Source of the DNA: Candidatus Altimarinota bacterium
GTDB lineage: Bacteria > Patescibacteriota > Gracilibacteria > UBA4473
Assembly: GCA_021734785.1 (NCBI GenBank)
Contig: JAIPIF010000001.1
Span: 248,001 to 312,000 of the forward strand
Reading direction: 5' to 3'
Length of the DNA stretch: 64,000 bases
Below the pieces are notes generated by a model that searched no databases, had not been told where the DNA came from, and saw only the letters and a list, made by a program, of their open reading frames with translations. Positions 25,574 through 44,000 of this stretch are shown piece by piece (position 1 is the stretch's first letter; the number at the start of each line of letters is the position of its first letter). The position numbers and the translations under genes are program-made.

Positions 25574-26410
25574 TTAGTTGCGCGCCAGCACTTCAAATCG
25601 ATGCGGCGTGTCGATTTTTAGCAATGTCGTGTCGAAAAGAATGCCGTGCACGTACCCGTCGCCCGATTTGTCCAGTTGAAATTCAACTCCGTCAAAAACT
25701 TCACGTTTCAAAAAATCATACTTCGCCTGCAAAATATTTGATTTCTCCGCGGCGGATCGAAATTTTTCCCCGTGTAATCGATAAAAAGTGTAGCTTTCTG
25801 CAAAATCCTCAAAACAGTTGTGCATCGCATATCCCGACACAAAATCATCCCGATTGGCCACTCTTTTTCGCTGTTTGGCTGTGACCCAGGAGAGTCGATA
25901 AAACTGAACACTGGAATCATCAGAATAGATCGGTACAGGGCCATCATAAAATCGCGTATGTTTCCCGTTTTCTCCCTTTATCATCCCCAGATCCACCACG
26001 TGCCCCACCTCGTGTACAAACACAGAAATGAGTTCGTCCTCATCATCGATCGTGCCGGTATGGAGAATAATTTTATGCCCGTTTCCTAGTCCCCGAGACT
26101 GATGCGACTGATTGCGGACTTCCAGTTCGCCGAGAAACTGCGTGTGTTCTTGCGGCAGCGAGAGGATCGCCGTGCGAAGATCCTTGCGAATTTCGTACAG
26201 TTCCAGTCGATCGCCGGGAGCGGTTTTGAAGTTTTTTGCAGAAAAATGTCCGTCCCAGGGGAGACGGGACTGCACGGCTGAAAATTTTCGTACAGATGTT
26301 ACGGTTAGCTCCTGTCGTGCGGGCGCAGTGCTCGGAGCCGCCGCATGTACAGCGGGGAGCGTCGGAGCGCTTGTCATCGAATGGAACCAGAGGAGGAGTG
26401 AAAGTAGCAT
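25574..26410 (-). CDS. Secreted zincin-like metallopeptidase
   Basis: A 278-residue exported protein. A short hydrophobic N-terminal segment (MLLSLLLWFHSMTSA) looks like the core of a signal peptide. The zinc motif is FVHEVGHVVDLG (HExxH, about residue 135) and the likely third ligand or helper is in FEDFAESYTFYRLHG (about residue 198), an arrangement resembling anthrax lethal factor-like/ATLF zincins. The start is uncertain: ATG 26410 is used, but a GTG four codons upstream would lengthen the signal peptide. The substrate is unknown; an envelope or surface-protein role is a guess. Confidence 0.7.
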   Translation of the reverse strand: MLLSLLLWFHSMTSAPTLPAVHAAAPSTAPARQELTVTSVRKFSAVQSRLPWDGHFSAKNFKTAPGDRLELYEIRKDLRTAILSLPQEHTQFLGELEVRNQSHQSRGLGNGHKIILHTGTIDDEDELISVFVHEVGHVVDLGMIKGENGKHTRFYDGPVPIYSDDSSVQFYRLSWVTAKQRKRVANRDDFVSGYAMHNCFEDFAESYTFYRLHGEKFRSAAEKSNILQAKYDFLKREVFDGVEFQLDKSGDGYVHGILFDTTLLKIDTPHRFEVLARN

Positions 26411-26459
26411 GAAACAAAACACAAAAAGGATGCGATTTTTGTGTTTGTTTTCACCGAGA

Positions 26460-26537: not shown

Positions 26538-26546
26538 TGGTACAAT
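26538..26546 (+). promoter_or_regulatory. Promoter of the surface pilin/PKD operon
   Basis: Extended -10 TGGTACAAT; the -35 region is only T-rich. The first ATG is 42 bases downstream. The longer open frame beginning at 26112 runs through this element and is not the real start. Confidence 0.6.
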
Positions 26547-26588
26547 CTTCAAAAATCTGCGAAAATTCCTTTGGATTTTTGTGTCCTC

Positions 26589-27596
26589 ATGAAACAGTTC
26601 CTTCGCGTCCTCTCGTGCTGCGTTTTCCTGCTGGTAGTGGGGAGCTTCTTTATTTCGACGGTTTCAGCGCAAAAAAATGCGGACGATTGCTATTTCAAAA
26701 ACAATGGTCAACCCAGGGAGAAATCCAACTGCTGGTGGACGTCCGGATGTACGTGGGATGCAAACGCTGGAGAAGAAAATAGTGATGGTGCCTGTATCCC
26801 CAAAGGGACTCCTCTCGGAGAAGGGGAGCTTCCGCCGGTCAGTGACCGAAAACTCGAAAAAGCTCTCGGACTTTTTTCTGAAATGTCTCAGCAGCCAGAG
26901 ATGTTTTTTCAAGCAGAGGCATGGAGCATAAATCCTCCTTCTGATCTGTATCAACAGCATGAAATGCTTTCAGTTGAAGGATTTACTCCAACGGAAATGG
27001 TGCAGTTTTGTGCGGATGCCTCCGATTCTCTGACGACGATTGGGAAAGGACGTTGTGAAAATATTTTTGATCTGCTGGGCATTATTGGTCGCGATGGGGT
27101 CTGGTTTCCCGCGTATTCGGGTCCTGTGTTTTACGGTCCGGGTCTCAAATCGGGCGCACACATCGCACGGGCGCAGCTGGATCATTCTATTTCGCACGAA
27201 AAGGACATCCGGGTACTTGCGATTGGCTGGTCCAAGTTTTTCCTTTCGATCGCAGCGGTGGTGGCGGTGATTGCGTTGATTTACGCCGGCATTCTGTACA
27301 TCACCGATTTCGGAACGGGGTCAGGTGCCGAAAAAGCCAAGAAAATTGTGCTCTGGGTCGTGGTGGGAATTCTCCTTATTCTCGGAGCGTATGCCATCGT
27401 CAACACAGTCATCCGCGCCAACATGGGGGCGCCTGATGACGGGGGGGAGATATCTCAGATTGAAATCAACTTTCAAGAAGGGGGACAACAAAAAGAACTC
27501 CCCGATGGGGGAGGATCCCTTGAAGATCCACCCGACAAACCGCTCCCTCCCTGGGGATATGGGAAACCACCTGAACAAGACCCCAACGGCCCATGA
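26589..27596 (+). CDS. Secreted protein with C-terminal VirB2/TrbC-like two-helix pilin module
   Basis: A 335-residue exported protein, first in a four-gene operon. The signal peptide covers about residues 1-27 (VLSCCVFLLVVGSFF, cut after STVSAQ). A Cys-containing domain follows (CYFKNN, CWWTSGCTWDA, then later CADAS and GRCENIF). Near residue 220 come two membrane helices (FFLSIAAVVAVIALIYAGIL and IVLWVVVGILLILGAYAIV) joined by a short loop with GSGAEKAKK, the pattern of VirB2/TrbC conjugative pilins common in CPR genomes. A Pro/Gly-rich acidic tail ends the protein. It is much longer than a classical pilin (about 100 residues). The stop overlaps the next ATG by 4 bases. Confidence 0.75.
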   Translation: MKQFLRVLSCCVFLLVVGSFFISTVSAQKNADDCYFKNNGQPREKSNCWWTSGCTWDANAGEENSDGACIPKGTPLGEGELPPVSDRKLEKALGLFSEMSQQPEMFFQAEAWSINPPSDLYQQHEMLSVEGFTPTEMVQFCADASDSLTTIGKGRCENIFDLLGIIGRDGVWFPAYSGPVFYGPGLKSGAHIARAQLDHSISHEKDIRVLAIGWSKFFLSIAAVVAVIALIYAGILYITDFGTGSGAEKAKKIVLWVVVGILLILGAYAIVNTVIRANMGAPDDGGEISQIEINFQEGGQQKELPDGGGSLEDPPDKPLPPWGYGKPPEQDPNGP

Positions 27597-30500
27597 AAAA
27601 ATGGTTTTTGATTCTCCTTTTGATTTGCTCCTTCGGAATTGCTATTCCGCAGGGGGAGGCGCAGTTTGGTGTCAATCTAGGAAACTCCTGGCAAGATGTC
27701 ACTGGTCGGATTGGCAACTGGTGGGATGATCTGGTGGATGATGGGCTCGATGGTATTTTTGGAGAAGGAACAGGAGGCCCGATTCCCGACGGTTCCTTTT
27801 CACTCGAAGGATACGAGGATGATTTTAGCAGTGAGATTTCGGCACACACGAGTCTGCGGGCCTACATTCGCAACGTCCTTAATTTTATTCTGAGTTTTCT
27901 CGGAATTATTGCGATTGCCGTGATTATTCTCGCGGGGTTTATGTATGTGACGTCTCTGGGGGATGATGGCCAAAAAGACAAAGCCAAAAAGATTTTGCAG
28001 TATGCGGTGATCGGAATTCTAATTATTCTTCTCTCGTATGCGCTGGTAAACACCCTCCTCACGGGTATTCCCGATGAGGCAAATCAATTTGGAGGGGGTG
28101 ATCCGCTCAATGAGGAAACACAACCGAATCCCACCCCACCGACCAACATTTCCAACGTTCTCATTCTGGCACAAGCCGATCCGCCTGATAGCGGGGAGAT
28201 ATATGATTTTCCGGGCGGATATGTGATTGAACCCAACACGACCGTTGTCTTTACCGCACAGGTGCCGGGATACGGAGAAGATCAGATTTCGGCGACATAC
28301 TGGAATTTGGGGAATGGAGATTTTGTCATGGCAGATACGGTTACTCGCACACTGTACGATCCCGGATGGAAAATGGTGCAGGTGCACGGGGAGACGACCG
28401 ATGATCGAGTGTTTGATGCTCGGTCTCGTCTGTACGTGGGCGAGGGAGCGCGAGCCAGATTTACACTCAATAATGCTTCCCCCGAGATAGGAGACTTGAT
28501 CACCTTTGACGCTTCTTCGTCTTCGGTTCCGATCGGAGGAATTCAAGAATATAATTGGACGTGTACGCAGACGAGTCCTTCCAATGGCACGGGGTGTCCG
28601 GAGGCCTTTGAAAATGCGACAAAAAAAGTACAGACGAGCTTTTCCGAATCGGGTACCTACGACATATCCCTCACTGAGACCGGCACACTGGGAGCAACTT
28701 CCGAATCCTTTTCAGAAGTCCTCTTTGTCTCCGAAGCGGGGTCTGGCGGAGGGCCCGGAGGGGGTGTACCGCAGCCAGATTTCCATGTTCCCACCTCTGT
28801 GGAACTGCAGGAAATTATTTCTTTTACCGCGACGGGGGGGGCAGAAGACACGACGTTTGCCTGGACCTTTCCTGATGGATCGACGCAGAGCGGACGACAG
28901 GTTGTCTTTCAGTTTGCTGCTCCGGGACCACGACCCGTGATGCTGGAGGCTTTTGATCCAGATGGCGAGCCGGTAGGAGACCCCGTGACCAAAAATGTAA
29001 TCGTCCTTTCTCCTGGATCGCCTCTCGCGATAGCAACCTTTGAGGGTTCAGAAATTTTGCCGGGACAAGACGTCGAAGTTTTTCGCAGTGTGTCCGGTGG
29101 ATTGGCAGTGGATTCGGCTTCCGTGGACGAAAATGGTGATCCTCTGGGGCCCGGATACACGTCCTGGTCAGTCAATGGACAGGTGGTTCCCTTTGCGCAG
29201 CTTTCACAGCTTTCGACACAATTGGGATTGTACCAGATCAAGTTGGTTGCCATTTCTCCGAGCGACCCCAATAATCGCGATAGTTTTCTTTTTCCGCTTC
29301 GGGTCCTCAACAATGCTCCGGTTCTCGATCCTGGCAGTATCTCTGTGACTCCGGTGGAGCCACTGGGGCCTGGATTTTTTCAGATTGTTGCCAGTGCGGC
29401 TGACCTGGATGGGACGCTCTCCAAATGGAAATTTGAGGTGTTGGAGTTTGGCACGCCGGTGGAAACACAGATGCTCAATTCTGCATCTGGCGGCTCAGCA
29501 GAAACCATGGAAACGATTGTGGATCTGTCGGCACTTTCAGAGGGAGTGCACTTCCTTCAGTTTCGTGTGACGGTGTTTGACAATGACCAGGGACAGGGAA
29601 GCGCTTCAGTGACAGAGGAAATTACGATTGAAGGGGGGGCGGCTTCTGGGGGGGAAGGAAACCAAGCGCCACAGGCAGAAATTTTTGTCACCCCCTCCAC
29701 CAAAGGAATGACCTCGACGCTGTTTCAGTTTTTCACCAACGCAAGCGATCCCGACGGAGACTTTTTGAATTATTCCTGGGAATTTCCCGACATGCCGCCC
29801 ACGTCCAATCCGTCCGTTTCTCACCGGTTTGAAGAAGCGGGACTGCACGAAGTTATTCTCACGGTTTCCGATGGTGAAGACGATACGGTTGTTTCTCAAG
29901 AAGTAGAAATTCTAGAAGATCCCGAAGCCCCGCCTTCTACAGAAAATCGGCCACCGGAAGCCTCTTTTGGCAGTATTCTTCCGAGCAAACAGGGGACGCC
30001 AGAAACACAATTTCAATTCTTTCTCCAGGCGTCTGATCCCGATGGAGATGAGCTCAGCTACAGTTGGGACATGGGAGATGGGACAGAATATTTCCTGCAA
30101 AATGTGGCCCACCAGTACGCGCAGCCGGGGACGTATTCCGCATCCGTTCGTGTCTCCGATGGCCTTGAAGAAGTGATGCTTCCGCTGACACTTCAGGTCT
30201 TTTCCCCTGACGATTCAGACTACAATGCTCCACCAGAAGTCCAAATTTCGAGTGTCATCCCGGCACGGACAGGAGATACCGAGACGGCATTTTCTTTTTT
30301 CCTCGATGCCACAGATCCCGAAGAAGAGGATCTTACCTTTTCTTGGAATCTCGGCGATGGGACCACGGTCACGTCTCAAAACGTAGAAGAACATCTCTTT
30401 TCTCAAAAAGGGCAGTACACGGCTCGGGTCGATGTTTCCGATGGGACAAATACCGTGCGAAAAACAGCGCATATTTCCGTTGTTGACTCTGGGGATTTGC

Positions 30501-32212
30501 CAGCGGCAAAGAACCTGGTCCCTACGGCACAGATCACAAGCATCACCCCTGGAAATTCCGGGGATATCAACACGGAATTTTCCTTCTTTGCTACGGGCAG
30601 CGACGCTGACCAGGACGAACTCGAATTTTCTTGGGATTTGGGGGATGGGACGACCGTTTCTTCCAAAAAAGTGGAAAAGCACGCATATGCCGAAAAAGGA
30701 ACCTACACCGTGACGCTTTCGGTTTCGGATGGTACCGATACGGTGACACGCACCGAGCGCGTGAGGGTTGTCAGTCCTGGAGAAATTATTCCACCAAATA
30801 CGTTTAACAAACCCCCTGAAGTCCAGATTTCTGGAGTGACGCCGGGGACCAGCGGAGACACCGACACTTCATTTTCGCTTTTTGGGACAGCGACAGATCC
30901 AGAAGGCGAATCCCTGACGTATGAATGGAATCTGGGGGATGGGACGATTGTTGCTGCGGAAAACGCACAGAACCATTCTTATTCGCAGAAAGGACACTAC
31001 ACAGCGACACTAACCGTTTCTGACGGAGAAAAAACAGCGTCCAAAAACACACGGATTACGGTCCTTAATCCAGGAGATCCTCTTTTGGTGGACAATCACC
31101 CGCCCACAGCACAACTTTCGAGCTTGGTCCCCGGAAATGCCGGAGACACCGAGACGGCCTTTTCTTTCTTTGCCACCGCGACCGATCCAGAGGAAGAGCC
31201 GCTTACGTTTTCCTGGGACCTCGGGGATGGCACCACAGCGTCTTCTCAAAATGTCCAAAATCATTCCTACAGCCAAAAGGGGCAGTATACCGCGACCCTG
31301 ACGGTCTCCGATGGTGAAAATTCTGTTACTCGAACCACAAAAATAACCGTGGTCGCAAAAGGGGAACCCATTCCCAAAAACACCTTCAACCAGCCGCCAG
31401 CGGCACGCATCTCCAGCATTGTCCCTGCGACAAGAGGTGACACCGAGACGATCTTTTCGTTCTTTTCCAATGCGACAGATCCCGAAGGAGCGGATCTTAC
31501 CTTTTCTTGGAATCTGGGAGATGGGACGGTTTTGGACACACAAAATGTGAGAGATCACATCTATGCACAGCCAGGAGATTATCTCGTGACTCTGTCCGTG
31601 AGTGATGGCGACAAAACCTCCTCCCTCACCAAGCAGATTTCCGTTTTTGCTCCGGGAGAAATTTTAAAAGGGGTCGCCATTAAAACGCCGATGGACAATG
31701 ATCTCTCCAGCTTTACTCACGAGCTCGACACCGTACAGGATGGGTATTGGCAAGAACTTCAGGCGGCAACGACTCCAGAAGAAAAAGCACAGGCGCTTCA
31801 AAAAATCGCGATTTCTGATGAAGTCAAACGGAAGATTTCCGCGCTGGAAACAGCGAGTGACCCCGCAGAGCAAGCCCGTCTCAATGCTGAGATTATTGCT
31901 CTCATGGATGAGCTTCGCGTGCTGGATCCTGCCTTGGAAATCGAAGAAGTTGATTTTACCGAGTACACCATCCGTGGGACGACGAATACAACCTTTTTCT
32001 TGTACGGACAGGTTCCCACAGAGCATCCGATGCCCGTTTCTCTCCAGTGGGACATGGGCAATGGCCAGGTTTTTGCAGGACAAGCGATTTCGTACCAGTA
32101 TCCTGCGCCAGGGACATACCGCGTAAAAATGACGGTGTCTGATGGCTCGACAGAAGCGATCGATTCCCTTACTATTCTGGTAGAAAGCCCGCAAAACACA
32201 TCTCAAAATTAA
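27593..32212 (+). CDS. Giant PKD-repeat surface protein with VirB2/TrbC-like membrane hairpin
   Basis: A 1539-residue exported protein. The signal peptide is about 1-24. Residues about 92-150 form a two-helix pilin-like hairpin (ILSFLGIIAIAVIILAGFMY, loop GDDGQKDKAKK, then YAVIGILIILLSYALVNTLL), closely matching the hairpin of the preceding protein. The rest is an extracellular array of PKD-like beta domains. Several diverged copies occupy about 180-680. Seven near-regular copies of about 97 residues (690-1356) carry YSWDMGDGT or FSWNLGDGT. A charged helical linker and one last PKD copy (LQWDMGNGQ) follow. It reads as a membrane-anchored stalk or fibre. No cell-wall sorting signal is present. 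Confidence 0.82.
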   Translation: MKKWFLILLLICSFGIAIPQGEAQFGVNLGNSWQDVTGRIGNWWDDLVDDGLDGIFGEGTGGPIPDGSFSLEGYEDDFSSEISAHTSLRAYIRNVLNFILSFLGIIAIAVIILAGFMYVTSLGDDGQKDKAKKILQYAVIGILIILLSYALVNTLLTGIPDEANQFGGGDPLNEETQPNPTPPTNISNVLILAQADPPDSGEIYDFPGGYVIEPNTTVVFTAQVPGYGEDQISATYWNLGNGDFVMADTVTRTLYDPGWKMVQVHGETTDDRVFDARSRLYVGEGARARFTLNNASPEIGDLITFDASSSSVPIGGIQEYNWTCTQTSPSNGTGCPEAFENATKKVQTSFSESGTYDISLTETGTLGATSESFSEVLFVSEAGSGGGPGGGVPQPDFHVPTSVELQEIISFTATGGAEDTTFAWTFPDGSTQSGRQVVFQFAAPGPRPVMLEAFDPDGEPVGDPVTKNVIVLSPGSPLAIATFEGSEILPGQDVEVFRSVSGGLAVDSASVDENGDPLGPGYTSWSVNGQVVPFAQLSQLSTQLGLYQIKLVAISPSDPNNRDSFLFPLRVLNNAPVLDPGSISVTPVEPLGPGFFQIVASAADLDGTLSKWKFEVLEFGTPVETQMLNSASGGSAETMETIVDLSALSEGVHFLQFRVTVFDNDQGQGSASVTEEITIEGGAASGGEGNQAPQAEIFVTPSTKGMTSTLFQFFTNASDPDGDFLNYSWEFPDMPPTSNPSVSHRFEEAGLHEVILTVSDGEDDTVVSQEVEILEDPEAPPSTENRPPEASFGSILPSKQGTPETQFQFFLQASDPDGDELSYSWDMGDGTEYFLQNVAHQYAQPGTYSASVRVSDGLEEVMLPLTLQVFSPDDSDYNAPPEVQISSVIPARTGDTETAFSFFLDATDPEEEDLTFSWNLGDGTTVTSQNVEEHLFSQKGQYTARVDVSDGTNTVRKTAHISVVDSGDLPAAKNLVPTAQITSITPGNSGDINTEFSFFATGSDADQDELEFSWDLGDGTTVSSKKVEKHAYAEKGTYTVTLSVSDGTDTVTRTERVRVVSPGEIIPPNTFNKPPEVQISGVTPGTSGDTDTSFSLFGTATDPEGESLTYEWNLGDGTIVAAENAQNHSYSQKGHYTATLTVSDGEKTASKNTRITVLNPGDPLLVDNHPPTAQLSSLVPGNAGDTETAFSFFATATDPEEEPLTFSWDLGDGTTASSQNVQNHSYSQKGQYTATLTVSDGENSVTRTTKITVVAKGEPIPKNTFNQPPAARISSIVPATRGDTETIFSFFSNATDPEGADLTFSWNLGDGTVLDTQNVRDHIYAQPGDYLVTLSVSDGDKTSSLTKQISVFAPGEILKGVAIKTPMDNDLSSFTHELDTVQDGYWQELQAATTPEEKAQALQKIAISDEVKRKISALETASDPAEQARLNAEIIALMDELRVLDPALEIEEVDFTEYTIRGTTNTTFFLYGQVPTEHPMPVSLQWDMGNGQVFAGQAISYQYPAPGTYRVKMTVSDGSTEAIDSLTILVESPQNTSQN
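29663..31660 (+). repeat. Seven tandem PKD-coding repeats
   Basis: Within the giant PKD gene, seven units of about 290 bp begin near 29663, 29950, 30229, 30519, 30810, 31099 and 31390. They share segments encoding GDTET-FSFF, DPE--LTFSW and LGDGT. The last five are most alike, suggesting recent duplication or recombination. Confidence 0.8.
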
Positions 32213-32222
32213 CACTTTTTCC

Positions 32223-34466
32223 ATGCCGGATACTCCCCCGCCCATTCCGCCAAAGCCAAATTCTGGAGACAATTCAGAGGAAAATACGGCTGCTTCCACA
32301 GAGGAGACTTCTTCTGAAGAAAAGAGGACCGCTGCTTCTTCCGAAGCTCCTTCTCAGAAAAAAGAAACGCCCCCAACCAAAGAGAAAGAAGAAACATCCG
32401 CTGCAGAAAAATCAAAATCAGGAGGGAGTGGTCGCTCTATTTTTGTTGGTTTTTTTGCGGTCATCTTGGGACTCTTTTGTGTGTTTTATTCTCTTCTGCT
32501 CTGGGGTCTTCTCAGCGGGAATCTTTCCAATCCGCTTTTTACGACGCTCGGAGTTGAGCCACAGCAGCTCAAAGATGTGTTGCTGCAGGTGACCAATTCG
32601 GTCTTTGGGTTTTTTGCGCTTTTGTTTCTCATCATGATGCTGATTAAGTTTTTTCAGTGGGTGATGATTTCCAAAAAACATCCGCGCAAAAAAAGTTATG
32701 GTCAGCGGACCGGTATTTTTCTCTTTGTGCTTCTCGTGGTAATCAGTGCTTGGGTAGCATTGTATTTGCTGATTCTCAACGCAAAAGTTGAAATAGTTGG
32801 GAACCAAATTCATGCGGAAAACTCTCTCATTGTCACCGATCCTGCCAACACGATTGGTATCTCGGTGCCCAAGACGATTAAATTCGACATCGCGCAAAAA
32901 CTCTACGAACGGATTGACCAGCAGTACGTACGCCAGATTCTTTGGGATCTCAATGGAGATGGAGAATACGGCGACGCTGCGGGATCGGTGGTGACCTACC
33001 GGTATCAAGAAGCACTGGGAGAAGAAGGCCGATTTACCGTTCGGGCAAAGGTCATTTATTTTTCGCCCAACAGCAACGAAGAAAAAGAATTTGTCGATGT
33101 GCGAGAAATTATCGTTCTCAATGAAGCGGCACAGGCAAAAATTACTGCCGAGCCTCTGATGGGGCAGGTCCCTCTGACGGTCAACTTATCGGCCGCGGAC
33201 TCGGTCGATCCAGATGGATCAATCGTTCAGTACGAGTGGGACCTGGACGATGATGAAAATTTTGAGATCAGTGGCGAGACAGAATCCCAAGTACAGACCG
33301 TACTGACTACGGTCGGAGATCACACGATCCGTCTTCGGGTAACGGGACAAAATAATGACTACGATGTCGCGGAAGTCACCATTACCGCGTTGGCAGCGGA
33401 TGAAAAAATTCGAGCGGAAATCACCTCTCCGGATGCTTCATTTTCGGGGATTGCCCCCTTTGAAATTACGCTGAGTGGAGAAAAGTCTTTTTCCAAGGAA
33501 GGGGGAATCGTGGAGTATGAGTGGGACATCTCCGGAGAAGAAAAAACCGTCCTCGGACGGAAAATTCAGCGAGAATTTACAGATCCCGGTACGTATGAAG
33601 TCACGCTGACAGTGACCAACGCAGACGAAGAAAGAGATCAGGAGACGGTGACGATTGAGGTATTTGAAAAACGCGAGGTTGTCATCCAGACTGCGCCGCC
33701 GATTCCCGAAGAAGGGCCGCTCCGAGGAACGGCACCGTTTGAAGTAACCTTTGACGCTTCGGCCTCAGAAGTTCCTCGTGCTGTAGAATGGCGATGGGAT
33801 TTTGAATCCGATGGCATCATCGATGATTTTTCTCAGCAGACGACCCATGTCTTTCGCGATCCCAAAACGTATACTGTGTCGCTGACCATTGTGGATTCAG
33901 CAAACCAGGAATTTGAGAGCACACAAAAGGTGGTGGTTGATCCCATCAATTTGATTCCGCGGATTTCTGCCGAACCCTCATCGGGCACAGTGCCACTGAC
34001 AGTGGACTTCGATGGCTCGGGCTCCACGGTCAAATCAGACGATGAGATCATTGATTTTATCTGGGAATTTCCAGGCGAAGACCCCATTCACTACCGGGCA
34101 AAAATTTCCTACGAATTCCGACGGGTGGGTGTGTTTCCTGTCAAAATGACGATTCTCACGGCCAAAGGACAGCGAGCCAGTACGGATATTCTGGTTTCAG
34201 TTCGTGCACAACCCCTGGAAGCTGCTTTTAGCGCGAGTCCCGTGCAGGGAGATGCGCCGTTGGAGGTATCATTCAATCCGCTCGATTCGACGGGAAATGT
34301 CCAGGAATATCTCTGGAACTTTGGAGACGGAGAAACCTCCCGCAAAATTTTGACCACGCATACCTACCAGACACCAGGGGAATACACGGTTCGGCTCCGG
34401 ATTACCAATGGCCGAGGGGTTGTGTCTGAAGCAACCAAAACCATCACGGTGACTGGCGACGAATGA
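32223..34466 (+). CDS. Membrane-anchored PKD-repeat protein
   Basis: A 747-residue protein, third in the surface operon and 10 bases after the giant PKD gene. An acidic, Pro/Ser/Glu-rich cytoplasmic N-terminus (about 1-72) is followed by three membrane helices (about 75-98, 122-146 and 163-186). About six PKD-like domains then extend outside (about 215-745), with cores such as YEWDLDDDENFE, YEWDISGEEKT, WRWDFESDG and YLWNFGDGE. There is no signal peptide, so orientation relies on the three helices. It probably assembles with the other products of the operon at the cell surface. The stop overlaps the next ATG by 4 bases. Confidence 0.78.
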   Translation: MPDTPPPIPPKPNSGDNSEENTAASTEETSSEEKRTAASSEAPSQKKETPPTKEKEETSAAEKSKSGGSGRSIFVGFFAVILGLFCVFYSLLLWGLLSGNLSNPLFTTLGVEPQQLKDVLLQVTNSVFGFFALLFLIMMLIKFFQWVMISKKHPRKKSYGQRTGIFLFVLLVVISAWVALYLLILNAKVEIVGNQIHAENSLIVTDPANTIGISVPKTIKFDIAQKLYERIDQQYVRQILWDLNGDGEYGDAAGSVVTYRYQEALGEEGRFTVRAKVIYFSPNSNEEKEFVDVREIIVLNEAAQAKITAEPLMGQVPLTVNLSAADSVDPDGSIVQYEWDLDDDENFEISGETESQVQTVLTTVGDHTIRLRVTGQNNDYDVAEVTITALAADEKIRAEITSPDASFSGIAPFEITLSGEKSFSKEGGIVEYEWDISGEEKTVLGRKIQREFTDPGTYEVTLTVTNADEERDQETVTIEVFEKREVVIQTAPPIPEEGPLRGTAPFEVTFDASASEVPRAVEWRWDFESDGIIDDFSQQTTHVFRDPKTYTVSLTIVDSANQEFESTQKVVVDPINLIPRISAEPSSGTVPLTVDFDGSGSTVKSDDEIIDFIWEFPGEDPIHYRAKISYEFRRVGVFPVKMTILTAKGQRASTDILVSVRAQPLEAAFSASPVQGDAPLEVSFNPLDSTGNVQEYLWNFGDGETSRKILTTHTYQTPGEYTVRLRITNGRGVVSEATKTITVTGDE

Positions 34467-36982
34467 GCCTTCTTTCCCGCTTTAGTTTTGTCGCCTTGGC
34501 CTGTCTGCTTCCGCTGGGGGTGTCCGCTTTTTTTTCGGCTCCCGAGACCACGCGGCTCAAACGCCAAATATCACTGGATGTCCTGCCGCCTCAGCAGGCA
34601 CAGCTGACGGTGACCCAGACGATTTCCAATCCGACAGACCAGCCGCTATCTGGTCGATTTTGGTTTCCGCTGCCTGCCGAGACACAATCCGTTCAGTTTT
34701 TTGTCGATGCGGCGGGAGAAAGTTTTGAAATTCTGCGTGAGACCGAGCGCCTGGAGGCGCTGTTTTCCGCCGCAAAATCCAGTGGACAGTCGCGCTTTTT
34801 TCGACTGGCCGCGGCACCGTTTTCTGCGATATTTCGCTCAGAGGAATTTTTTCTCCCTGCACAAAAAACGCGCCAGTTTAAACTCCAGTTGTTGTTGCCA
34901 CTCCAGCAGCAAGATGATTTTTGGCGCGCCGATATTTTTACTCATGACAGCGTCATCGACGCACAGACAGAAATTTCCGCTTCGATCACCCAAGCCGGAG
35001 GAGTGGCACATTTTTTTTCCAATCTGCCCCCGGGAAATGCGCTGGCTGATCATTCCGAGTCTGGGAGTGTTTTTCTCTTTCAGCAGACTGACTGGGAGGC
35101 CCCGGACAATCTCCATTTCTGGTGGTCTTCTGAGCCGGAAGCCATTCTCGCCGCCCCAGGACCAGCTGGAGAGTATGTGGGGCATTTTGTGCCGCGTCCG
35201 ACACCAGCCTCTTTTGAAACAGTGACGCTCCTGATTGACCGGTCTGGGTCGATGTCGGGGAGTGTGTGGTTTCGTGTGCGAGAGCTGCTGCAGTTTCTCT
35301 TTTCTCTTCTCTCCGAAAAATCTGTTCGGGTGGCCTTTTTTGACACAAAACTTGAATGGGTTGAGCCTTCGTTTGTTTCTCCTGACCTGTCCTGGCAGGA
35401 ATCGTTTCTTGAGAGACTGACAAATGTCAGTCCTGTGGGAGCGACGGATCCGGATGCTGTTTTGTCTGAACTGCGAGAGACAGAGCCTTCAGAAAATCTG
35501 ATCATTTTGCTCACCGATGATCCGGCGCGTGAGGCGTGGCAGCAAGAATTTTCAGATCGGCGGCTTGTCATTTTTTCCTTCACTGCCGCAGAGCAGGCAG
35601 CCGAATCCTCTCAAAACTGGAGTGTGCCTTCTTGGCGGAGTGGGGGATTTTTTCAGCGGCTTTTTCGGTCGGCTGTGCAACTGATCGAAAAACCAGAAAT
35701 TCTCCAGAAATGGAATCAGCTCCGGGAGCCGGTTTCGGTTACAGCCCTTTCTCCACTCCCGCAGGAACAAGAGATTTTGCCCGAAACGCTGCGTCAATTT
35801 TCAGAAGAAAAAAGTCCGTTTTTTGTAGGGCGAATCCTGCGAGACGCCCCAGATTTTTCCCTGGAATCGATCGGAAAATTTCTCTCGCGATCTTGGGCTG
35901 AGCGCCGGATTGCTGGCATTTTTGAAACGCTTTTGGCGGTCGCCAAAAAAGGGGAACCCCTGCCGGAGGATCTTCTCGATGCCGTGCTCTCGATCGGTCG
36001 TATTTTTGGGGTAGAGACGTCTGTTTTTTCCACAGAAACCGTTCGGGATGAACTGCGAGACCGCATTCTTTCTGTGGCGGATACACCGGCGTTTCACCAG
36101 GAAATCCAGCAGCTCTCGCAGTCTGTCGGGTCGCCAGGAGCCACGGCTCTTTTTTCTTATCGCGGCATTCCCTTTCGCTTTTTGCCGTCAGAAAACATCT
36201 GGCGGACCATTTCTTTTTTGGAGGAAGTCCGTCCTGAGCGGCTCGTAAAAATCGCGCCATTTTCTCAGGCCCAAAAAGAACTGTTTCTCGAATTCCCGGA
36301 AATATTTTCCTCCGCCTTTGGTGTGGGAATGCAGACGGAGTTTTGTACCTTTTTCCGCTGTTTTTCGGTTCGGTACGGTCATCGCGAAGCTTCTTTGCCC
36401 ACGGATCGGGCATTTCTCCGTGATTTTGATCCGCATCACTGGGCCGTTCCGTCTGTGGTGGAGCTTGTGCAGCAGGGAGTTTTTGTCCCTGCCAAAAACG
36501 GGAAATTGCATCTCGATCGGGCGATAGATCGTGGTGAATTTCTCCGGATGTTATTTGTACTCCAAGATCCTGACTTTTCTCCCCCAGAAAACACTCTCGA
36601 AACCTTTTCGGACGTCTCTCGTGAGCAACAGTACTTTCTCCCTATTGAATTTTATGCACGCACAGGAGTTGTGAGTGGCTACAAAGACGGGAGTTTTCGT
36701 CCACTGCAGGAATTGACACGGGCCGAAGCGGTCAAGATTTTGCTCGCAGCAGATGGATTTATCCCTGATCCCGAAAAACTCGAAATCGGCGAATTCAACG
36801 ATGCGCTTGGGTGGGAAAAACGCTGGGTCAATGAGGCGGTGCGTCGGGGACTGGTTTCTGGTTACTCGGACGGCACGTTTCGGCCGCATCGGGAGATGAC
36901 GCGCGCGGAGGCCGCGAAGGTGCTCGTTGAGTGGAAGAAAACAAGGAACAACTTCAATTACGAATTACAAATGGGGAGATGA
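34463..36982 (+). CDS. VIT/vWA surface protein with S-layer homology repeats
   Basis: An 839-residue exported protein, last in the operon. After a signal peptide (about 1-21) comes a VIT-like domain (LTVTQTISNPTDQPLSGRFW). A von Willebrand A domain follows at about 250-400 with the MIDAS motif DRSGSMSG and LIILLTDD. The middle region is unassigned. The C-terminus holds three SLH-type repeats, the last two clearest (GVVSGYKDGSFRPLQELTRA and GLVSGYSDGTFRPHREMTRA), which usually bind S-layer secondary polymers. The final dozen residues (NNFNYELQMGR) are encoded by an intergenic ATTACAAATG-type repeat that has run into the gene. VIT-vWA proteins often act in adhesion or metal-dependent assembly. 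Confidence 0.85.
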   Translation: MSLLSRFSFVALACLLPLGVSAFFSAPETTRLKRQISLDVLPPQQAQLTVTQTISNPTDQPLSGRFWFPLPAETQSVQFFVDAAGESFEILRETERLEALFSAAKSSGQSRFFRLAAAPFSAIFRSEEFFLPAQKTRQFKLQLLLPLQQQDDFWRADIFTHDSVIDAQTEISASITQAGGVAHFFSNLPPGNALADHSESGSVFLFQQTDWEAPDNLHFWWSSEPEAILAAPGPAGEYVGHFVPRPTPASFETVTLLIDRSGSMSGSVWFRVRELLQFLFSLLSEKSVRVAFFDTKLEWVEPSFVSPDLSWQESFLERLTNVSPVGATDPDAVLSELRETEPSENLIILLTDDPAREAWQQEFSDRRLVIFSFTAAEQAAESSQNWSVPSWRSGGFFQRLFRSAVQLIEKPEILQKWNQLREPVSVTALSPLPQEQEILPETLRQFSEEKSPFFVGRILRDAPDFSLESIGKFLSRSWAERRIAGIFETLLAVAKKGEPLPEDLLDAVLSIGRIFGVETSVFSTETVRDELRDRILSVADTPAFHQEIQQLSQSVGSPGATALFSYRGIPFRFLPSENIWRTISFLEEVRPERLVKIAPFSQAQKELFLEFPEIFSSAFGVGMQTEFCTFFRCFSVRYGHREASLPTDRAFLRDFDPHHWAVPSVVELVQQGVFVPAKNGKLHLDRAIDRGEFLRMLFVLQDPDFSPPENTLETFSDVSREQQYFLPIEFYARTGVVSGYKDGSFRPLQELTRAEAVKILLAADGFIPDPEKLEIGEFNDALGWEKRWVNEAVRRGLVSGYSDGTFRPHREMTRAEAAKVLVEWKKTRNNFNYELQMGR

Positions 36983-37367
36983 ACCCGGGTTCGGATTTCA
37001 AACATTTGTCCTTTTTTGGCGTCAAAAAAGGACGAAAAAACCGCCGTCCGGATGCTCGTCGCCACTCACAGCACACAAAAAAATTCTGTTTCGCGACAAC
37101 TCGTCCCGCTCGTGCGGGACTCAGACACGCCGCTCCACGACGCATTTTTTTGCTCTGTGAAATGGCTCCTGCGCAGGGACGGAAAAAAAGCAAAGAACAA
37201 TTACAGATTACAAATTATAAATCGGAAAATCCCCCCATCCCCCTTTGAAAAAGGGGGGAAAGATTGCTTCGTTCCCCGCTTCGCGTGATCCTCGCAATGA
37301 CGGAGAGTTTTTGAAAAAGGGGAGGCTTCGTCTCCCGCCAAGGCGTGATCCTCGCAATGACAATTTT
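36953..37367. repeat. Cluster of intergenic repeats between the surface operon and pyrE
   Basis: No gene is seen from 36983 to 37368. The stretch holds ATTACAAAT-type repeats (also at the end of the preceding gene), a CCCCCTTT-GAA-AAAGGGGG hairpin at 37239-37257, and two exact copies of GCGTGATCCTCGCAATGAC (37283-37301 and 37343-37361). Read on the minus strand, those copies are the widespread GTCATTGCGAGGATCACGC type of dispersed repeat. Confidence 0.65.
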
Positions 37368-38044: not shown

Positions 38045-38205
38045 CGAATGAAAAATGGGGGAAGCTGAAAAGTCAAAAAGCTCAAAAGCTTAAAAGTTGA
38101 GAAGAAGAGAAGTTTTGAAGAAAAATCCCCCCGTCCCCCTTTGAAAAAGGGGGGGAGTTTTGAAAAAAGAAAAAAGAAAAAAGAAAAAAGAAAGAATGGC
38201 TCTTC
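38045..38205. repeat. Intergenic simple and hairpin repeats
   Basis: Contains AAAGCTCAAAAGCTTAAAAG-type reiterations, a CCCCCTTT-GAA-AAAGGGGG hairpin (38135-38153) and a heptamer run GAAAAAA repeated about four times (near 38162-38190). The hairpin and the AAAAAAGAAAGAAT end also occur at 53903-53975. Confidence 0.6.
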
Positions 38206-38211
38206 GACAGA

Positions 38212-41040
38212 TTATGTAGATTTTTTCTCCGGTTCTGTGTCGAGGAGTGCCTCCGTGGGGGCCGCCTTTTTGACATTCTCCGGAATCTTTTTCGGATCAA
38301 ACACGGCTCCGGCACCGGGATTTTCTACCTGATCCTGGAGCGTACCGGTGGTAGCACTGATCTCTTCTTCTTTGATCTTTGTCGGAATGGGGGTGTCTCC
38401 CAGCAGATTATCATTGACGGTGGGATCGTCTTTGGCGGTTTTTTCAATCGCTCCGAGATTGTCGATTCCCATGCGAGCCTCGATTTCGGCATCAACAAAT
38501 TCTTTCTTTCTTCCGTATTTCATCCGCGAGTATTTTTTGAGCACCTCCAATACCTTGTCATTTTTCAAGCTCGGATCGTACAGTGTCTCCATCGAAAAGA
38601 CACGGCTGGTGGTGTTTTCGATATTGAGCTTGATATAGGTTTTGTAGTTGGCAATGGACAAAATATCTTGTGCGGACAAAAGCGGTGCATATTCTTTTTC
38701 CAAATATTCCGCATCCTCTGCGCCGACCTTGAAGCTCACCATTGTCCCGACGTTTCCAAAGACCGCATCGCGGATTTTGCTGTCTTTTTGGCCAATCGAA
38801 ATGCCCGCGGCACTTTCGGATAATTGCGCAATGTACTGGTGGGCCATGATCAGGTTGAGTCGATATTTTCGTGCTTCCGAGAGAATCGTGGCAAAAGTAT
38901 CGGTGGCAAAGTTTTGAAATTCATCGACATACAAATAAAAATCCTTGCGTTCTTTTTGGGGGATGTCGGCGCGGCCCATCGCGGCCATGTTGATCTTACT
39001 CACGACCACCAGTCCCAGGAGCTGGGCATTGATGCCGCCGATTTTTCCTTTCGACAGATTGATCAGCAGGACTTTTTTGTTGTCCATACAATCGCGTACG
39101 TCAAACGCCGATTTGGTTTGTCCGATCACGTTTCGCATCGTCGTATTGGTCACAAACGGCCCAAACTTCGACGTAAAGTACGGGATCATTTCCTGTTTTT
39201 CGCGTTGACCGGTGTTGGCCATTTCATTTTCCCAAAAGCTGCGTACGACGGGGTTGCGGACTTTTGCGACTTTGTACCGCTGGAAATCGTCATCAATAAA
39301 AAGCCGCGGAACATCAATGAGTGTGGCGCCCTCTCCCTTGTCAGACATCAGCGTGAGACAGCCGTTTCGAAAGTAATGCTGGATGCGGGGACCAAAGATT
39401 TCATTTCCAAATAGTTTGATCATAATTTCCATGGCGTCGAGGGACGCTCGATCCTGTTCGTCATCATTTTTCGTCTCCAAAATATTCAGCCCCATAGGAC
39501 GCCCCTTGTCAGAGGGATCAAAAATAATGGTGTCTTTGGCCCGTTCTTTGGGGACACAGCTTGCTACGTCATCAATCAAGTCTCCGTGGGGATCGACCAC
39601 ACAAACTCCTTCGCCGTTGGCAATGTCTTGGATGGCTTGATTCCACAGAAGGACCGATTTACCCGACCCGGATTTTCCGATGATGTACTGATGTCGAGTG
39701 CGATCTTCTTTGAGAAAATGTACCTGCTTTTCTACCCCGCGATATACAGATTTTCCCAGGACCACTCCTTCTTCTGGCAAATTGATGGGCGGAGGAAGAA
39801 TTTTGTACGTGAGCCATTTGATCGTAGGAATGCGGTTGTATCGCGCATCCGGGAAGTGAAACATGGTGGCGAGCTCTTCCGAGCAAAGCGTCGAATGTTT
39901 TTCAAACACATCTCGGAGGCGGTATCGAAACCGCCACAGAATCAGTTTGTGGTTGATCGAATTGAAGGGGACGATTCGCTTGTACTCAAATCGGTTGGTG
40001 CCTTTTCCCTTGAAAATATTGAACGCCACAAACATGCCATTCAAAATAGGGGAGACCCGATTTTCTCTGGGAGAACTCGCCATCACACGGACGGTGGTGT
40101 GAAATCCAGACTGGAGTGCTTTTTCGCCCATCGATTTGGCGACGTCCTCTTCACTTTGGAGCATACGAATGTAGCTATCGCCACTTTTGGCTCCGGGAGC
40201 GTTTGTGCCGCCACCATCGACGGCAGGGTCATAGCCGCGGATGAGAATTTTGATCGGAAACCAGATGCCGCGGAGAATGGGCCCCAAAATGGGGACACGG
40301 AGTCCGGATTTTTTTTCGCGTTTAAATTTTTTATTGGCAGCTTCACTGGCTTTTTTCTTCCAGCCATCGCCGCGTGGATGCACGACAAACTGGATGACCG
40401 CTTTTTCATCGGGCTGGAGCTGTGCAAAGCTGTTTGCCAAACCATTGAGAGAATCATCTTCAATTTTTTTGTACGTCTGGATTGGATACCAGTACGGCTC
40501 GGCGGTGTAGAGATTGTAGCCGTTGACGTGTTCTTTTTGCAGATCAAATTTGAGCTGTTGTTCGGGGGTCATCGAATGGATTTCGGCAGACTCATAAAAC
40601 GTCGTGATCTGTTTTTCGATCAGGGGCCGGTAGTAGGGATGACACACCACCACAAAGTCCATCTGGCGATCCCGAAACTGGAGCTCGAATGAAATGTGGG
40701 GTTCGGCCCAGGGGATGCGGCGCAGGGCAATGTTGTACAGATTGAGATCGCGTGTCTCGTGAATGGCTCGAAAAAATTGCTCGCCCTTGCTCACCGCTTC
40801 GTGGAAATCTTTTTCCGTCCGTTTTTCATTGTCGAGTTTGGAATCATTGCGAGGAAGGGTGACCCGCAGCTGGACATATTTTTTGAACCCGTGTACCTGG
40901 TGCCAGATCCGTGCCCAAAAGATGAGCAGTTTTAGCACCCACCACGCCAGAATGAGTCCGATGCCGACGTAGACCGTTTTCCAGCTCCAGAGGGAGCGCA
41001 GGAATTCACTCCAGTCGACGTGTTGAAACCATTCCATCAT
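38212..41040 (-). CDS. VirD4/TraG-family type IV secretion ATPase
   Basis: A 942-residue membrane-anchored ATPase. One N-terminal membrane helix (about residues 22-45) precedes about 350 residues of unassigned sequence. The RecA-like motor follows: Walker A IIGKSGSGKSVL (about 455), CVVDPHGDLI, and Walker B FYLYVDEFQNFA (about 703). The segment SEARKYRLNLIMAHQYIAQL is the conserved sensor region of VirD4/TraD coupling proteins. A charged Pro-rich tail ends the protein. No relaxase, VirB4 or mating-channel gene is present, so its cargo may be protein or surface structures rather than DNA. It lies 30 bases downstream of the DUF11 gene in the same direction and is probably the last gene of that operon. 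Confidence 0.85.
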   Translation of the reverse strand: MMEWFQHVDWSEFLRSLWSWKTVYVGIGLILAWWVLKLLIFWARIWHQVHGFKKYVQLRVTLPRNDSKLDNEKRTEKDFHEAVSKGEQFFRAIHETRDLNLYNIALRRIPWAEPHISFELQFRDRQMDFVVVCHPYYRPLIEKQITTFYESAEIHSMTPEQQLKFDLQKEHVNGYNLYTAEPYWYPIQTYKKIEDDSLNGLANSFAQLQPDEKAVIQFVVHPRGDGWKKKASEAANKKFKREKKSGLRVPILGPILRGIWFPIKILIRGYDPAVDGGGTNAPGAKSGDSYIRMLQSEEDVAKSMGEKALQSGFHTTVRVMASSPRENRVSPILNGMFVAFNIFKGKGTNRFEYKRIVPFNSINHKLILWRFRYRLRDVFEKHSTLCSEELATMFHFPDARYNRIPTIKWLTYKILPPPINLPEEGVVLGKSVYRGVEKQVHFLKEDRTRHQYIIGKSGSGKSVLLWNQAIQDIANGEGVCVVDPHGDLIDDVASCVPKERAKDTIIFDPSDKGRPMGLNILETKNDDEQDRASLDAMEIMIKLFGNEIFGPRIQHYFRNGCLTLMSDKGEGATLIDVPRLFIDDDFQRYKVAKVRNPVVRSFWENEMANTGQREKQEMIPYFTSKFGPFVTNTTMRNVIGQTKSAFDVRDCMDNKKVLLINLSKGKIGGINAQLLGLVVVSKINMAAMGRADIPQKERKDFYLYVDEFQNFATDTFATILSEARKYRLNLIMAHQYIAQLSESAAGISIGQKDSKIRDAVFGNVGTMVSFKVGAEDAEYLEKEYAPLLSAQDILSIANYKTYIKLNIENTTSRVFSMETLYDPSLKNDKVLEVLKKYSRMKYGRKKEFVDAEIEARMGIDNLGAIEKTAKDDPTVNDNLLGDTPIPTKIKEEEISATTGTLQDQVENPGAGAVFDPKKIPENVKKAAPTEALLDTEPEKKST

Positions 41041-41070: not shown

Positions 41071-44000
41071 TTATTCCTCTGGCTGGCCCCAGCCCTGTCC
41101 GAGGAAGGACTCGAGTGCTGGAGGCGTCGCATCGATCAGCCGCCAGTCAAAGGTGATCACAATATTGGGTTCGAGCTGGAAATTTCCAGTGTCATCCGTG
41201 TATCCGATGTACTTCCGATCACGCAGGAGATGGCGGGCATCGCCCATCAGCGATCCCGAGATCAGGAGCTGTTTGTGGGAGACACCGGCGGAAAATATTT
41301 TTCCCTGCTCGGCGATGAAGACGCCGTCAATGTCGCTGACATCTTTGTCGATGTAAATGTTTCCCTCGCGCACAATGAACGCGGCGATGTCTCCGGTAAG
41401 GTCTACGTTTTCATCGATGATCAGATCGCCGGTTTCAATGAAGAAGGTTTTGGCTTGGTCGAAATTCTTATCTTCATCAATTGTTAGGTTTCCACTCTCC
41501 AAAAAGTGTACGCCAGACTCGTCCGCGATGGTTTTAAATTCTGTTCCCCAGAAAGTATCCCCTGTTTGGGTAGTATTTTCTTTCAGGTTTGCGACCAGTG
41601 CGTCGAGCGAAGTGGTGAAGTCGTCCAAATTTTCGAGGTCTTCCTCGCCCACCTGCTGCTCATCAAAGATGCCCTGTGTGCCGGTGAGTTTTTCATAGTC
41701 CGTCTGGAGGTTTTGGGCACCCAGGCTGCCGCCGCCGCCGATCTCGACGTAGGGGCGTTGGATGGAGACTTCTGCGGTGTCTCCCTCCGTGGAATCGAAC
41801 AAGTCACGCACCCTGAGAAATTCCTCACAGGACTCAATGGTGGAGGTGCTTGCTGCTTCTTCAACAGCAGTTCCCCCTTCATCGTATTTTACCGCCTCTA
41901 ACTCTACGACGGCAAAGGCGACATTCTTGATATTTTCTGCAAAATCATCCTCGACCGTCAGCATCGTATTCATGTCGTAGGAGACGGTGAAGGCTTTTCC
42001 AGTGGCGGGAAGGGTAACCCCCCCACCGATGTCGTTGTACCAGAAAAAGTTTTCTCCGTACGTCGCATCTTCACCATGAGGATTCCACTCCCAGCGAGTG
42101 TATGGATCGGATAGTTGTCGATTCCAAATCCATCCAGAATCAGCCGGTACGGAGAAGTCAAAAATTTTGATGTCTTTGAGTGTGACCGTCCAAGGAGCTA
42201 CAGGAGTAGCAATCAGCGAAACGGTGTAGTGTGGATTTTCGTGCAGGGCTACGGTCTCAGGGGTGACGGTTTTTGTGATGCTGAGATTTACATATTCACA
42301 CGGATCGGGAGGACATTCAATCTGTGGATCACATTGTTCCTGCCAGAGGTCGTCCCAATCAGTGCCGCCAGCAGCGGCAAGACTAAATCCATCTTTTGGA
42401 GTACAGAGTGGGAAGTACCCGACACCCTCGGCCCATTTGGCAAGACAGATAGCCTTGGCTTCGTTTGTGTTTTCGAGGTCTTCGAGGCACTGTTTATATG
42501 CAATGTACGCAGGGTCATCGAGATCCCAGTCGGGGTAGGCTTGCTTGCAAACCCAGTCGGATGAGTTTGGATTGGTGTCACAAAATCCAATCGAAGGGTT
42601 GACCGGGGGGCTGCCGTTTCCTTCTTCTGTACAGCTGGCAGAGCAGCCATCGCCATTGTTGGTGTTGCCATCGTCACACTCCTCGCCGGGCTCGACAATG
42701 CCGTTTCCACACACGGGCTCGGGCGGAGGACCGCCTCCCTCGACCTCCAGACAGAGGGGAGGGGTGACGACGGCTTGATTGACGCCACCACCGAGCTGAG
42801 AGACAGCCGAGACAGAATTGCAAATGATCGTTCCATCGGGGGTGTCTTGGTTGACGAGTACGTCGATCGTGAAAGTTTCGCTCGAGGTCACTTTCCACTC
42901 GATGATTTGGTTCGTTCCCAGATTATTTCCTGAGAAATCCAAAAAGGTGAGGTTTTCATCCAGTGCATCGGTGGCAAACACTGTACTGCTGACATTTTCA
43001 AACGTGATGTGGTAGGAAATATTTTCCCCTGGCGTGACGGTGTCTCCATCTTGCAGAGGAGCGCCACCACTGTCAGAGGCAGTTTTTTCGACATCAAACG
43101 GATCACCACCGCCCGTGATAGTGAGGCAGACCTCGTCCATCACCGCCCAGTCGATTTCTGCTGTGGTGGCAGACACGAGATTGCAGAGAGTCTCCCCCGC
43201 GCTTCCACTGACCAAAACAGAAAACTGGTGCATTTTGGACTGTCCCGGCTCAAGCGATCCAAAATCAATCGTGACGATTTGATTGTCGAGGGTTAATTCT
43301 CCTTCCATGATGGGGCCCTCTCCAGTCAGAAGGAAAGAGTCTCCCAGATTATCCGTGGCGATGACTTCGGTGAGGGGGTTGTCACCTGTATTTTCCACCA
43401 CAATCGAAAAGGTCGTCATGCCGCCCACAGGAACGCTCGAGGCACTACTTGTTTTTTCGATGTTGAGTTCGTACTCTCCACTGCCGCCAGTGATCGTCAG
43501 ACACGCTTCGGCGAGCTCCGACCAGTCAATCTCGGCCGCGGTGGCGGTGACGGTGTTGCAGATTTCTTCGCCGGGGTCGCCCTCGACCTGCACCGAAAAT
43601 TCATGCATTTTTGATTCGCCGGGGGCAAGTGTATCAAAGTCAATCGTGACAATTTGTCCGTTAACGGTGAGATTTCCCTCCATCACAGGACCTTCTCCCT
43701 GGAAGGTAAACGCCAGATCGAGTTCATCGGTGGCAATGACCTCGGTGAGCAGGAGATCACCGGTATTTTCCACGACAATGGAGAACGTAGCTTTTTCCCC
43801 GGAGGGGAGTGAAGCGGGATCGATCAGTTTTGTGAGGGTGAGATCGTAATTTCCGCCCGTAACGGTCACGCATGCAGTAGCGGTCTCCGACCAGTTGATT
43901 TCTGCTGCCGTGGCAGATACCTGATTGCAAATGGTTTCTCCTGCCTCTCCGTTCACTTCCACTACAAATTGATGCACTTTGGATTCTCCAAGCGCAAGAT

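Follow-up and report, generated by a model that had tools for sequence, protein, structure and literature searches.

Organization of the four-gene operon

The subject of this analysis is an operon encoding pilin-type hairpins and large PKD-domain proteins in Candidatus Altimarinota bacterium (assembly GCA_021734785.1), which we studied in a 64,000-nucleotide stretch of contig JAIPIF010000001.1 (positions 248,001 to 312,000 of the forward strand; hereafter, the window). The source genome totals 1.06 Mb in nine contigs and is 77% complete. The operon occupies positions 26589 to 36982 of the window and holds four genes, all on the + strand. Genes 1 and 2 share an ATGA overlap at 27593, genes 2 and 3 are 10 bases apart, and genes 3 and 4 are joined by a further ATGA overlap at 34463. 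These coordinates, taken from the open reading frames, agree with an initial annotation made from the DNA letters, which had described four consecutive genes coupled by two ATGA overlaps and one 10-base gap. Position 26538, where it placed the start of the operon, reads 'tgg' and is no start codon; the ATG of gene 1 is at 26589. As a whole, that observation proved real and needed small corrections of the start, the hairpin loop, and the PKD count.

Gene 1 (26589 to 27596, +) encodes 335 residues with a signal peptide, a variable N-terminal ectodomain, and a type-A VirB2/TrbC-like hairpin near the C terminus. Gene 2 (27593 to 32212, +) encodes 1539 residues, in which a signal peptide and a type-B VirB2/TrbC-like hairpin are followed by a giant PKD ectodomain. 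The 747-residue product of gene 3 (32223 to 34466, +) has a predicted proline-rich cytoplasmic tail, three transmembrane (TM) helices, and six PKD domains, and the 839-residue product of gene 4 (34463 to 36982, +) has a signal peptide, VIT and vWA domains, and SLH repeats.

Pilin-type hairpins of genes 1 and 2

The type-B hairpin of gene 2 (27860 to 28060, +; residues 90 to 156) scores 34.2 bits for the T4SS_pilin family PF18895 and so exceeds its cutoff of 26.6 bits. The type-A hairpin core of gene 1 (27207 to 27407, +; residues 207 to 273) scores below both cutoffs in the window copy, with 19.7 bits for PF18895 and 22.1 bits for TrbC (PF04956). Because all of the orthologous hairpins match PF18895 at E<=0.01 (27/27 of the gene-1 type and 26/26 of the gene-2 type), the match of the gene 1 hairpin is not a chance one. 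At the same threshold, TrbC was matched by 24 of the 27 gene-1-type and 20 of the 26 gene-2-type hairpins. The presence of VirB2/TrbC-type hairpins in two of the genes, as first annotated, is therefore well founded, with PF18895 found in 53/53 orthologous hairpins.

Each type has its own consensus and its own place in the protein. Type A reads GWxNFxL...AKKIIxW..G..AYAIVNT and lies near the C terminus with a short tail in most members; type B reads LGLxAVxxIIYAGFLYVT...KAKKIIxYAxIG...SYAIVNT and stands ahead of the ectodomain. Types A and B are two distinct conserved paralogs, one per gene. The type-B hairpin was modeled as a helix at positions 11 to 43, a loop at 44 to 47 (GDDG), and a second helix at 48 to 81, with a pLDDT of 82.6; this helix-loop-helix model is of a monomer, which cannot show packing. 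The AKK triplet that had been assigned to the loop is indeed present and sits at the start of the second helix. A sequence-profile search of the PDB with the hairpins found no pilin, an outcome that for a bare hairpin carries no weight either way.

The hairpins change more slowly than the regions around them. The type-A hairpin is 85% identical to its ortholog from the same genus, compared with 44% for the N-terminal region of gene 1, and the gene 2 hairpin is 78% identical within the genus, compared with about 50% for most of the rest of gene 2; over both genes, most of the ectodomain falls at 44 to 54%. By this comparison no other part of gene 1 or gene 2 is as well conserved as its hairpin. 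The conservation goes beyond what a free anchor would need and suggests that the helix surfaces are constrained by partners. A classical short pilin has about 100 to 150 residues with little beyond the hairpin. At 335 and 1539 residues, genes 1 and 2 fall outside that size, and we therefore class them as pilin-domain-containing proteins rather than as classical pilins.

Two further hairpin arrangements were seen along the way. One, in the same genome (L072:8338-9036), places a CarboxypepD_reg domain ahead of the pilin hairpin and is another combination of ectodomain and hairpin. At the other (L071:7975-13039), two hairpin genes adjoin a 699-residue protein without a Pfam match, which by eye looks phosphatase-like and then repetitive.

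PKD domains and the membrane region of gene 3

Gene 2 contains 11 PKD domains, 8 strong and 3 weak. The three weak domains come first (28232 to 28969, +; residues 214 to 459), followed by seven strong domains in tandem (29660 to 31639, +; residues 690 to 1349) and a last domain near the end of the protein (31952 to 32176, +; residues 1454 to 1528). Gene 3 has six, one weak and five strong, the strong ones spanning 33120 to 34436 (+; residues 300 to 738). An earlier count of about 12 and 6 was thus right for gene 3 and one too many for gene 2. The Pfam PKD_4 model matches the operon proteins with E-values of 8.7e-119 and 4.3e-58, and all but one of the genome's PKD_4 matches (15/16) fall in genes 2 and 3. 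A structure model of gene 3 superimposes on the ColG PKD domain 2y72 over 85 residues with a Z score of 14.3 and a root-mean-square deviation of 1.5.

The model of gene 3 begins with a disordered proline-rich tail, followed by helices at residues 70 to 98, 113 to 148, and 156 to 185 and then by beta domains. The segment TM2-TM3 (32559 to 32777, +; residues 113 to 185) was modeled as a pair of helices joined by a basic loop. When compared with the type-B hairpin profile by hhalign, it gave a probability of 88.5%. The 52 unrelated multi-TM controls were single sequences, and because a single sequence is a weaker query than a profile, gene 3 sequences were also compared one at a time: 8 of 22 scored above 40% against the type-B profile, and no control exceeded 8.7%. 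At one locus (L095), the type-B profile also matches the TM2-TM3 site of a gene 3 homolog weakly, at 16 bits. We conclude that TM2-TM3 of gene 3 is a probable diverged pilin-type hairpin; the two hairpin genes first recognized are both real, and this probable third hairpin had been overlooked.

Gene 4 joins an ITIH-like region to SLH repeats

The VIT and vWA domains of gene 4 fall slightly below the Pfam cutoffs in the window copy. A profile built from 12 gene 4 sequences matches ITIH1 (6fpy; E=1.1e-14 over residues 30 to 457) and ITIH4 (9c4f; E=8.1e-15), and places the ITIH-like VIT and vWA region at 34550 to 35722 (+; about residues 30 to 420). Within it lies the metal ion-dependent adhesion site (MIDAS) motif DRSGS (35237 to 35251, +; residues 259 to 263). 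The pattern D-x-[ST]-G-S is kept in 15/15 orthologs, as DxSGS or DxTGS plus a later Asp, and the Thr position is variable. The C-terminal SLH repeat region (36413 to 36979, +; residues 651 to 839) matches Pfam SLH at 1.9e-24, and the gene 4 profile matches the Sap SLH structure 6bt4 at E=2.8e-20. The annotation of VIT, vWA, and SLH modules is thus borne out by the ITIH1/4 and Sap profile matches and by the MIDAS motif. About ten open frames of the genome also contain SLH repeats.

Genes 1 to 3 recur together throughout the class

We compared the operon with 60 relatives of the class. Gene-1-type hairpins were present in 58 of them and a gene 3 match (E ~2e-20 or better) in 43. In 32 of these 43 genomes, from nine families, a type-B hairpin lies within ~12 kb of gene 3 on the same contig, as compared by eye, and the order hairpin gene, giant, gene 3 is visible in the gene maps. 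Several of the 11 genomes without linkage of the giant to gene 3 have the gene at a contig end. The giants of the class range from about 0.9 to 2.9 thousand residues. The related loci, found with a family-level gene 3 alignment, belong to metagenome-assembled genomes of Candidatus Gracilibacteria, Peregrinibacteria, or Patescibacteria.

Gene 4 follows a different distribution. Among the 60 relatives it was confined to the family of the window, where 14 of the 19 family mates have it, ten of them next to gene 3; in one genome (G006) it is separated from genes 1 to 3 by 47 kb. Since it is restricted to one family, gene 4 cannot be needed in general. From this distribution we take genes 1 to 3 to be the core and gene 4 to be a family-specific addition. 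The co-occurrence that the initial annotation had proposed as a check is therefore strong and class-wide for genes 1 to 3, and for gene 4 extends to one family.

Hairpin giants in other Patescibacteria

In a sample of 241 genomes from the phylum, 211 contained a type-B-like hairpin (E<=1e-9). Hairpin giants outside the class were found in at least 12 genomes among the matches listed, with lengths from 1,934 to 14,266 residues. At the loci inspected outside the class, the giant comes after a second hairpin protein of 549 to 853 residues. The scanned giants carry Big_5, Big_7, and TIG modules, and two have laminin-G-like or vWA domains near the C terminus. Judging by these domains, the common theme outside the class is a hairpin, an immunoglobulin (Ig)-like stalk, and then possible binding domains. 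The arrangement is seen in many families within Patescibacteria, the group to which the comparison was confined, including for the initial suggestion that the apparatus may be CPR-specific. One scanned giant cluster adjoins genes for signal peptidase S26, histidyl-tRNA synthetase, and YqeY.

The 14,266-residue frame was observed in one genome (G136:C1 from ~501,270; L128:7271 through L129 to L130:10129). It has an N-terminal T4SS_pilin hairpin and Big_5, Big_7, and TIG domains, and its last 3,375 residues match no Pfam family. A 635-residue hairpin protein precedes it, and directly after it (L130:10268-19999) are more long frames, one of at least 2198 residues with an N-terminal hydrophobic segment.

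Relationship to the type IV secretion system

The genome that carries the operon also has type IV secretion system (T4SS) parts: a VirB4 of 679 residues (L080, contig 9), PrgI (1.7e-13), a TraC-N/TrsD-like protein, and a 122-residue pilin (L070:5583-5948). The island of PrgI, TraC-N, RecG, and pilin stays together in family mates. In Gracilibacteria, these genes have been reported not to lie near virB4 (PMC12102498), and the island fits this description. The 122-residue pilin and the gene 2 hairpin share 49% identity; the pilin falls with type B, with low support (0.58), and short pilins score 88 to 110 bits with the type-B model, nearly as high as the giants. The pilin kinship first noted for the gene 2 hairpin holds, and it extends to the short T4SS pilin of this genome, a link that had been missed. 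VirB4 was found in 59 of the 60 relatives; because it is nearly universal in the class, its co-occurrence with the giants says little. In one genome (G033), VirB4 lies ~4 kb from the giant.

We also observed pairs of membrane proteins with three or four hairpins in tandem (L070:10626-12871, L061, L062, L063, L064, L065, L066, L067, L133, and L094). In the family of the window, those with three hairpins are ~5 kb away from the T4SS pilin; in other families they directly precede the giant operon. Gracilibacteria have been reported to lack a VirB6-like component, and the tandem-hairpin proteins could be that component.

A putative contact apparatus on a pilin-hairpin base

The interpretation that we favor, with a probability of roughly 0.5, is that the operon encodes a contact or adhesion apparatus that spans the envelope and has a membrane base of VirB2/TrbC-type pilin hairpins. 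Hairpin homology, PKD, vWA, and SLH domains, and gene linkage are its directly observed elements, and the arrangement in the membrane is deduced from topology. In the proposed mechanism, gene 1 (type A), gene 2 (type B), and gene 3 (a probable diverged hairpin plus an extra TM helix) would share the cytoplasmic membrane, the basic loops facing inward. From their C termini, stalks of 11 and 6 PKD domains would extend through the peptidoglycan and S-layer; at ~4 nm per PKD domain, their lengths would be roughly 45 nm and 25 nm. Gene 4 would sit in the wall or S-layer through its SLH repeats, where its metal-site vWA domain may hold or cap a stalk or bind a partner. We are less sure of a further step, in which the hairpins would assemble together with the short pilin of the genome's T4SS, or with a T4SS base, and the giants would thereby be pilus-associated adhesins that serve the T4SS of Patescibacteria.

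A mixed membrane assembly of pilin hairpins, with or without the T4SS pilin, is favored because hairpin conservation suggests constraint by partners. Domain content and published parallels lead us to infer a role in host contact or attachment, and we likewise infer the coupling of the apparatus to the T4SS. More tentatively, and with somewhat less confidence than the apparatus itself, a pair of pilin-hairpin proteins, one mid-sized and one giant (up to 14,266 residues), may be widely used by Patescibacteria as pilus- or T4SS-integrated adhesins in which the pilin fold is the socket of host-gripping stalks.

Several results weigh against this interpretation. A Pfam scan of the operon found no VirB4 or other T4SS ATPase, channel, or other core gene; the operon lies ~140 to 150 kb from the genome's PrgI/TraC-N island, and VirB4 is on another contig. 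Two genomes scored as 100% complete (G034 and G225) have hairpin giants and no detected VirB4, which assembly gaps could explain. A fold search of the PDB with the bare hairpin, a query too non-specific for its outcome to weigh either way, listed generic helical hairpins such as those of chemoreceptors and ion channels and no pilin. Lastly, the S-layer vWA/SLH protein is not a general part of the apparatus, as it was found among the 60 relatives only in the family of the window. Of the initial interpretation, the idea that the pilin hairpin anchors large stalks in the membrane or serves in their assembly is well supported by sequence.

These results would be accommodated if the hairpin were a mere two-pass anchor and genes 1 to 4 ordinary surface stalk or adhesin proteins without a working T4SS link. 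An operon without T4SS core genes, VirB4 mostly at a distance, and the giants of G034 and G225 would all be expected under this explanation, and lone proteins whose ectodomains are unrelated also carry the hairpin, the CarboxypepD_reg protein described above among them. It nevertheless seems less likely to us: the pilin consensus is kept, the hairpins have changed less than the ectodomain, one operon retains two or three different types of hairpin, and the gene 2 hairpin is still close to the genome's own pilin, where a bare anchor would be expected to drift. Alternatively, the operon could serve envelope structure, with PKD stalks that hold membrane and S-layer together at a periplasm-like spacing and with gene 4 as an S-layer component. 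The SLH repeats in gene 4 and other open frames and the concentration of nearly all genomic PKD matches (15/16) in genes 2 and 3 are in keeping with such a tether. Archaeal S-layer proteins also carry PKD domains (a 1l0q match), and stalks of tens of nanometers would fit the distance from membrane to S-layer. The length of the giants, however, varies from 0.9 to 2.9 thousand residues in the class and from 1.9 to 14 thousand elsewhere, which suits a contact device more than a fixed spacer. Giants elsewhere also carry lectin-like laminin-G and vWA domains and gene 4 was not found outside the family of the window, so we consider a structural tether quite improbable. That the four genes are chance neighbors with no shared apparatus could be argued from the family members in which gene 4 is apart from genes 1 to 3 (47 kb in G006). 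This explanation was rejected as having only the slimmest chance of being correct, as it is largely refuted by synteny: start and stop codons overlap, the order of gene 3 and then gene 4 recurs in ten relatives, and that of the giant and then gene 3 in 32 genomes.

Comparison with known systems

Patescibacteria are known to have T4SS with VirB2-like pilins, and no PrgB-type adhesins were detected in them (PMC12102498). The pilins of these systems (PMC12102498; PMC10633639) share with the operon a PF18895/PF04956 hairpin, a signal peptide, and several divergent copies per genome. The operon differs in that the hairpin is fused to ectodomains of 0.3 to 14 thousand residues, mostly away from VirB4, and PMC12102498 makes no mention of PKD. 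With the VirB2/TrbC pilins of the T-pilus and F-pilus, the hairpins have in common the helix-loop-helix, a basic stretch at the loop, and, going by topology, N and C termini that would lie outside; those pilins, however, are polymerizing subunits of ~100 residues. T4SS pilins were essential in Candidatus S. epibionticum, the one tested case (PMC10633639), and genes for pilin-domain and PKD proteins are among the highly expressed ones in archaea-parasitizing Patescibacteria (PMC10936435).

Large Ig-like proteins have been tied to conjugation elsewhere. According to the available part of one report, the Big-domain proteins of plasmid R27 bind conjugative pili and aid conjugation (PMC8730810). 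RSP and RSP2 of this IncHI1 plasmid resemble the giants as Ig-like proteins of high molecular weight, and they are connected with a conjugative pilus; their export to the medium and their binding to both pili and flagella set them apart, and that part of the report does not describe a pilin hairpin (PMC8730810). PrgB and LPxTG adhesins of Gram-positive T4SS (PMC12857230) are a possible functional counterpart, as surface adhesins of a monoderm T4SS. PrgB has a polymer adhesin domain and sortase anchoring, in contrast to the Ig-like stalks on a membrane hairpin of the operon (PMC12857230). The grappling-hook protein GhpA of the predatory Aureispira is a very long Ig/PKD-like chain, to fragments of which the gene 3 PKD region aligns with Z scores of 10.8 to 12.5, a likeness in tandem Ig-like shape alone and no test of homology. 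Closer to the phylum, giant membrane PKD/DUF11 proteins have been proposed to mediate host attachment in Vampirococcus lugosii, a predator of the candidate phyla radiation (CPR); in the accessible part of that report, neither a pilin hairpin nor an operon is described for them (PMC8080830). Gene 4 combines an N-terminal region of ~430 residues resembling ITIH1/4 and a Sap-like C terminus in one bacterial protein.

The VirB2-like pilins of Patescibacteria (PMC12102498) and the giant PKD proteins of CPR predators (PMC8080830) are thus known already, and what is new is the systematic fusion, the operon, and their recurrence. In the literature searched, we found no description of a fusion of a VirB2-type hairpin with PKD domains, of the operon, or of its phylum-wide recurrence. 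The recurrent fusion of a pilin with giant Ig-like proteins is a concrete candidate for the missing contact device by which Patescibacteria (CPR) hold or feed on cells. If this is true, the giants would be adhesins for a T4SS that had seemed to have none, and the possible uses of the pilin fold would be extended. The fusion also offers a genomic marker, PF18895 within an open frame above about 800 residues, that can be tracked over the phylum.

Neighboring genes and repeats

Upstream of the operon, a divergent gene (25574 to 26446, -) encodes a secreted HExxH metallopeptidase-like protein that is probably outside the apparatus; it is retained beside the operon in the loci of seven relatives (L044, L048, L049, L050, L052, L053, and L088). 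Downstream, a VirD4-like gene (38212 to 41040), on the strand opposite to the operon, adjoins a gene for a 2061-residue DUF11-repeat surface protein (41071 to 47256, -). Farther on, Amidase_2 and SpoIID are combined in one protein (49125 to 51674, -), a possible wall-remodeling enzyme. Finally, CCCCCTTTGAAAAAGGGGG occurs in perfect intergenic copies at 37239 to 37257, 38135 to 38153, and 53903 to 53921 of the window, where zero would be expected by chance, and these copies are possibly a small dispersed repeat.

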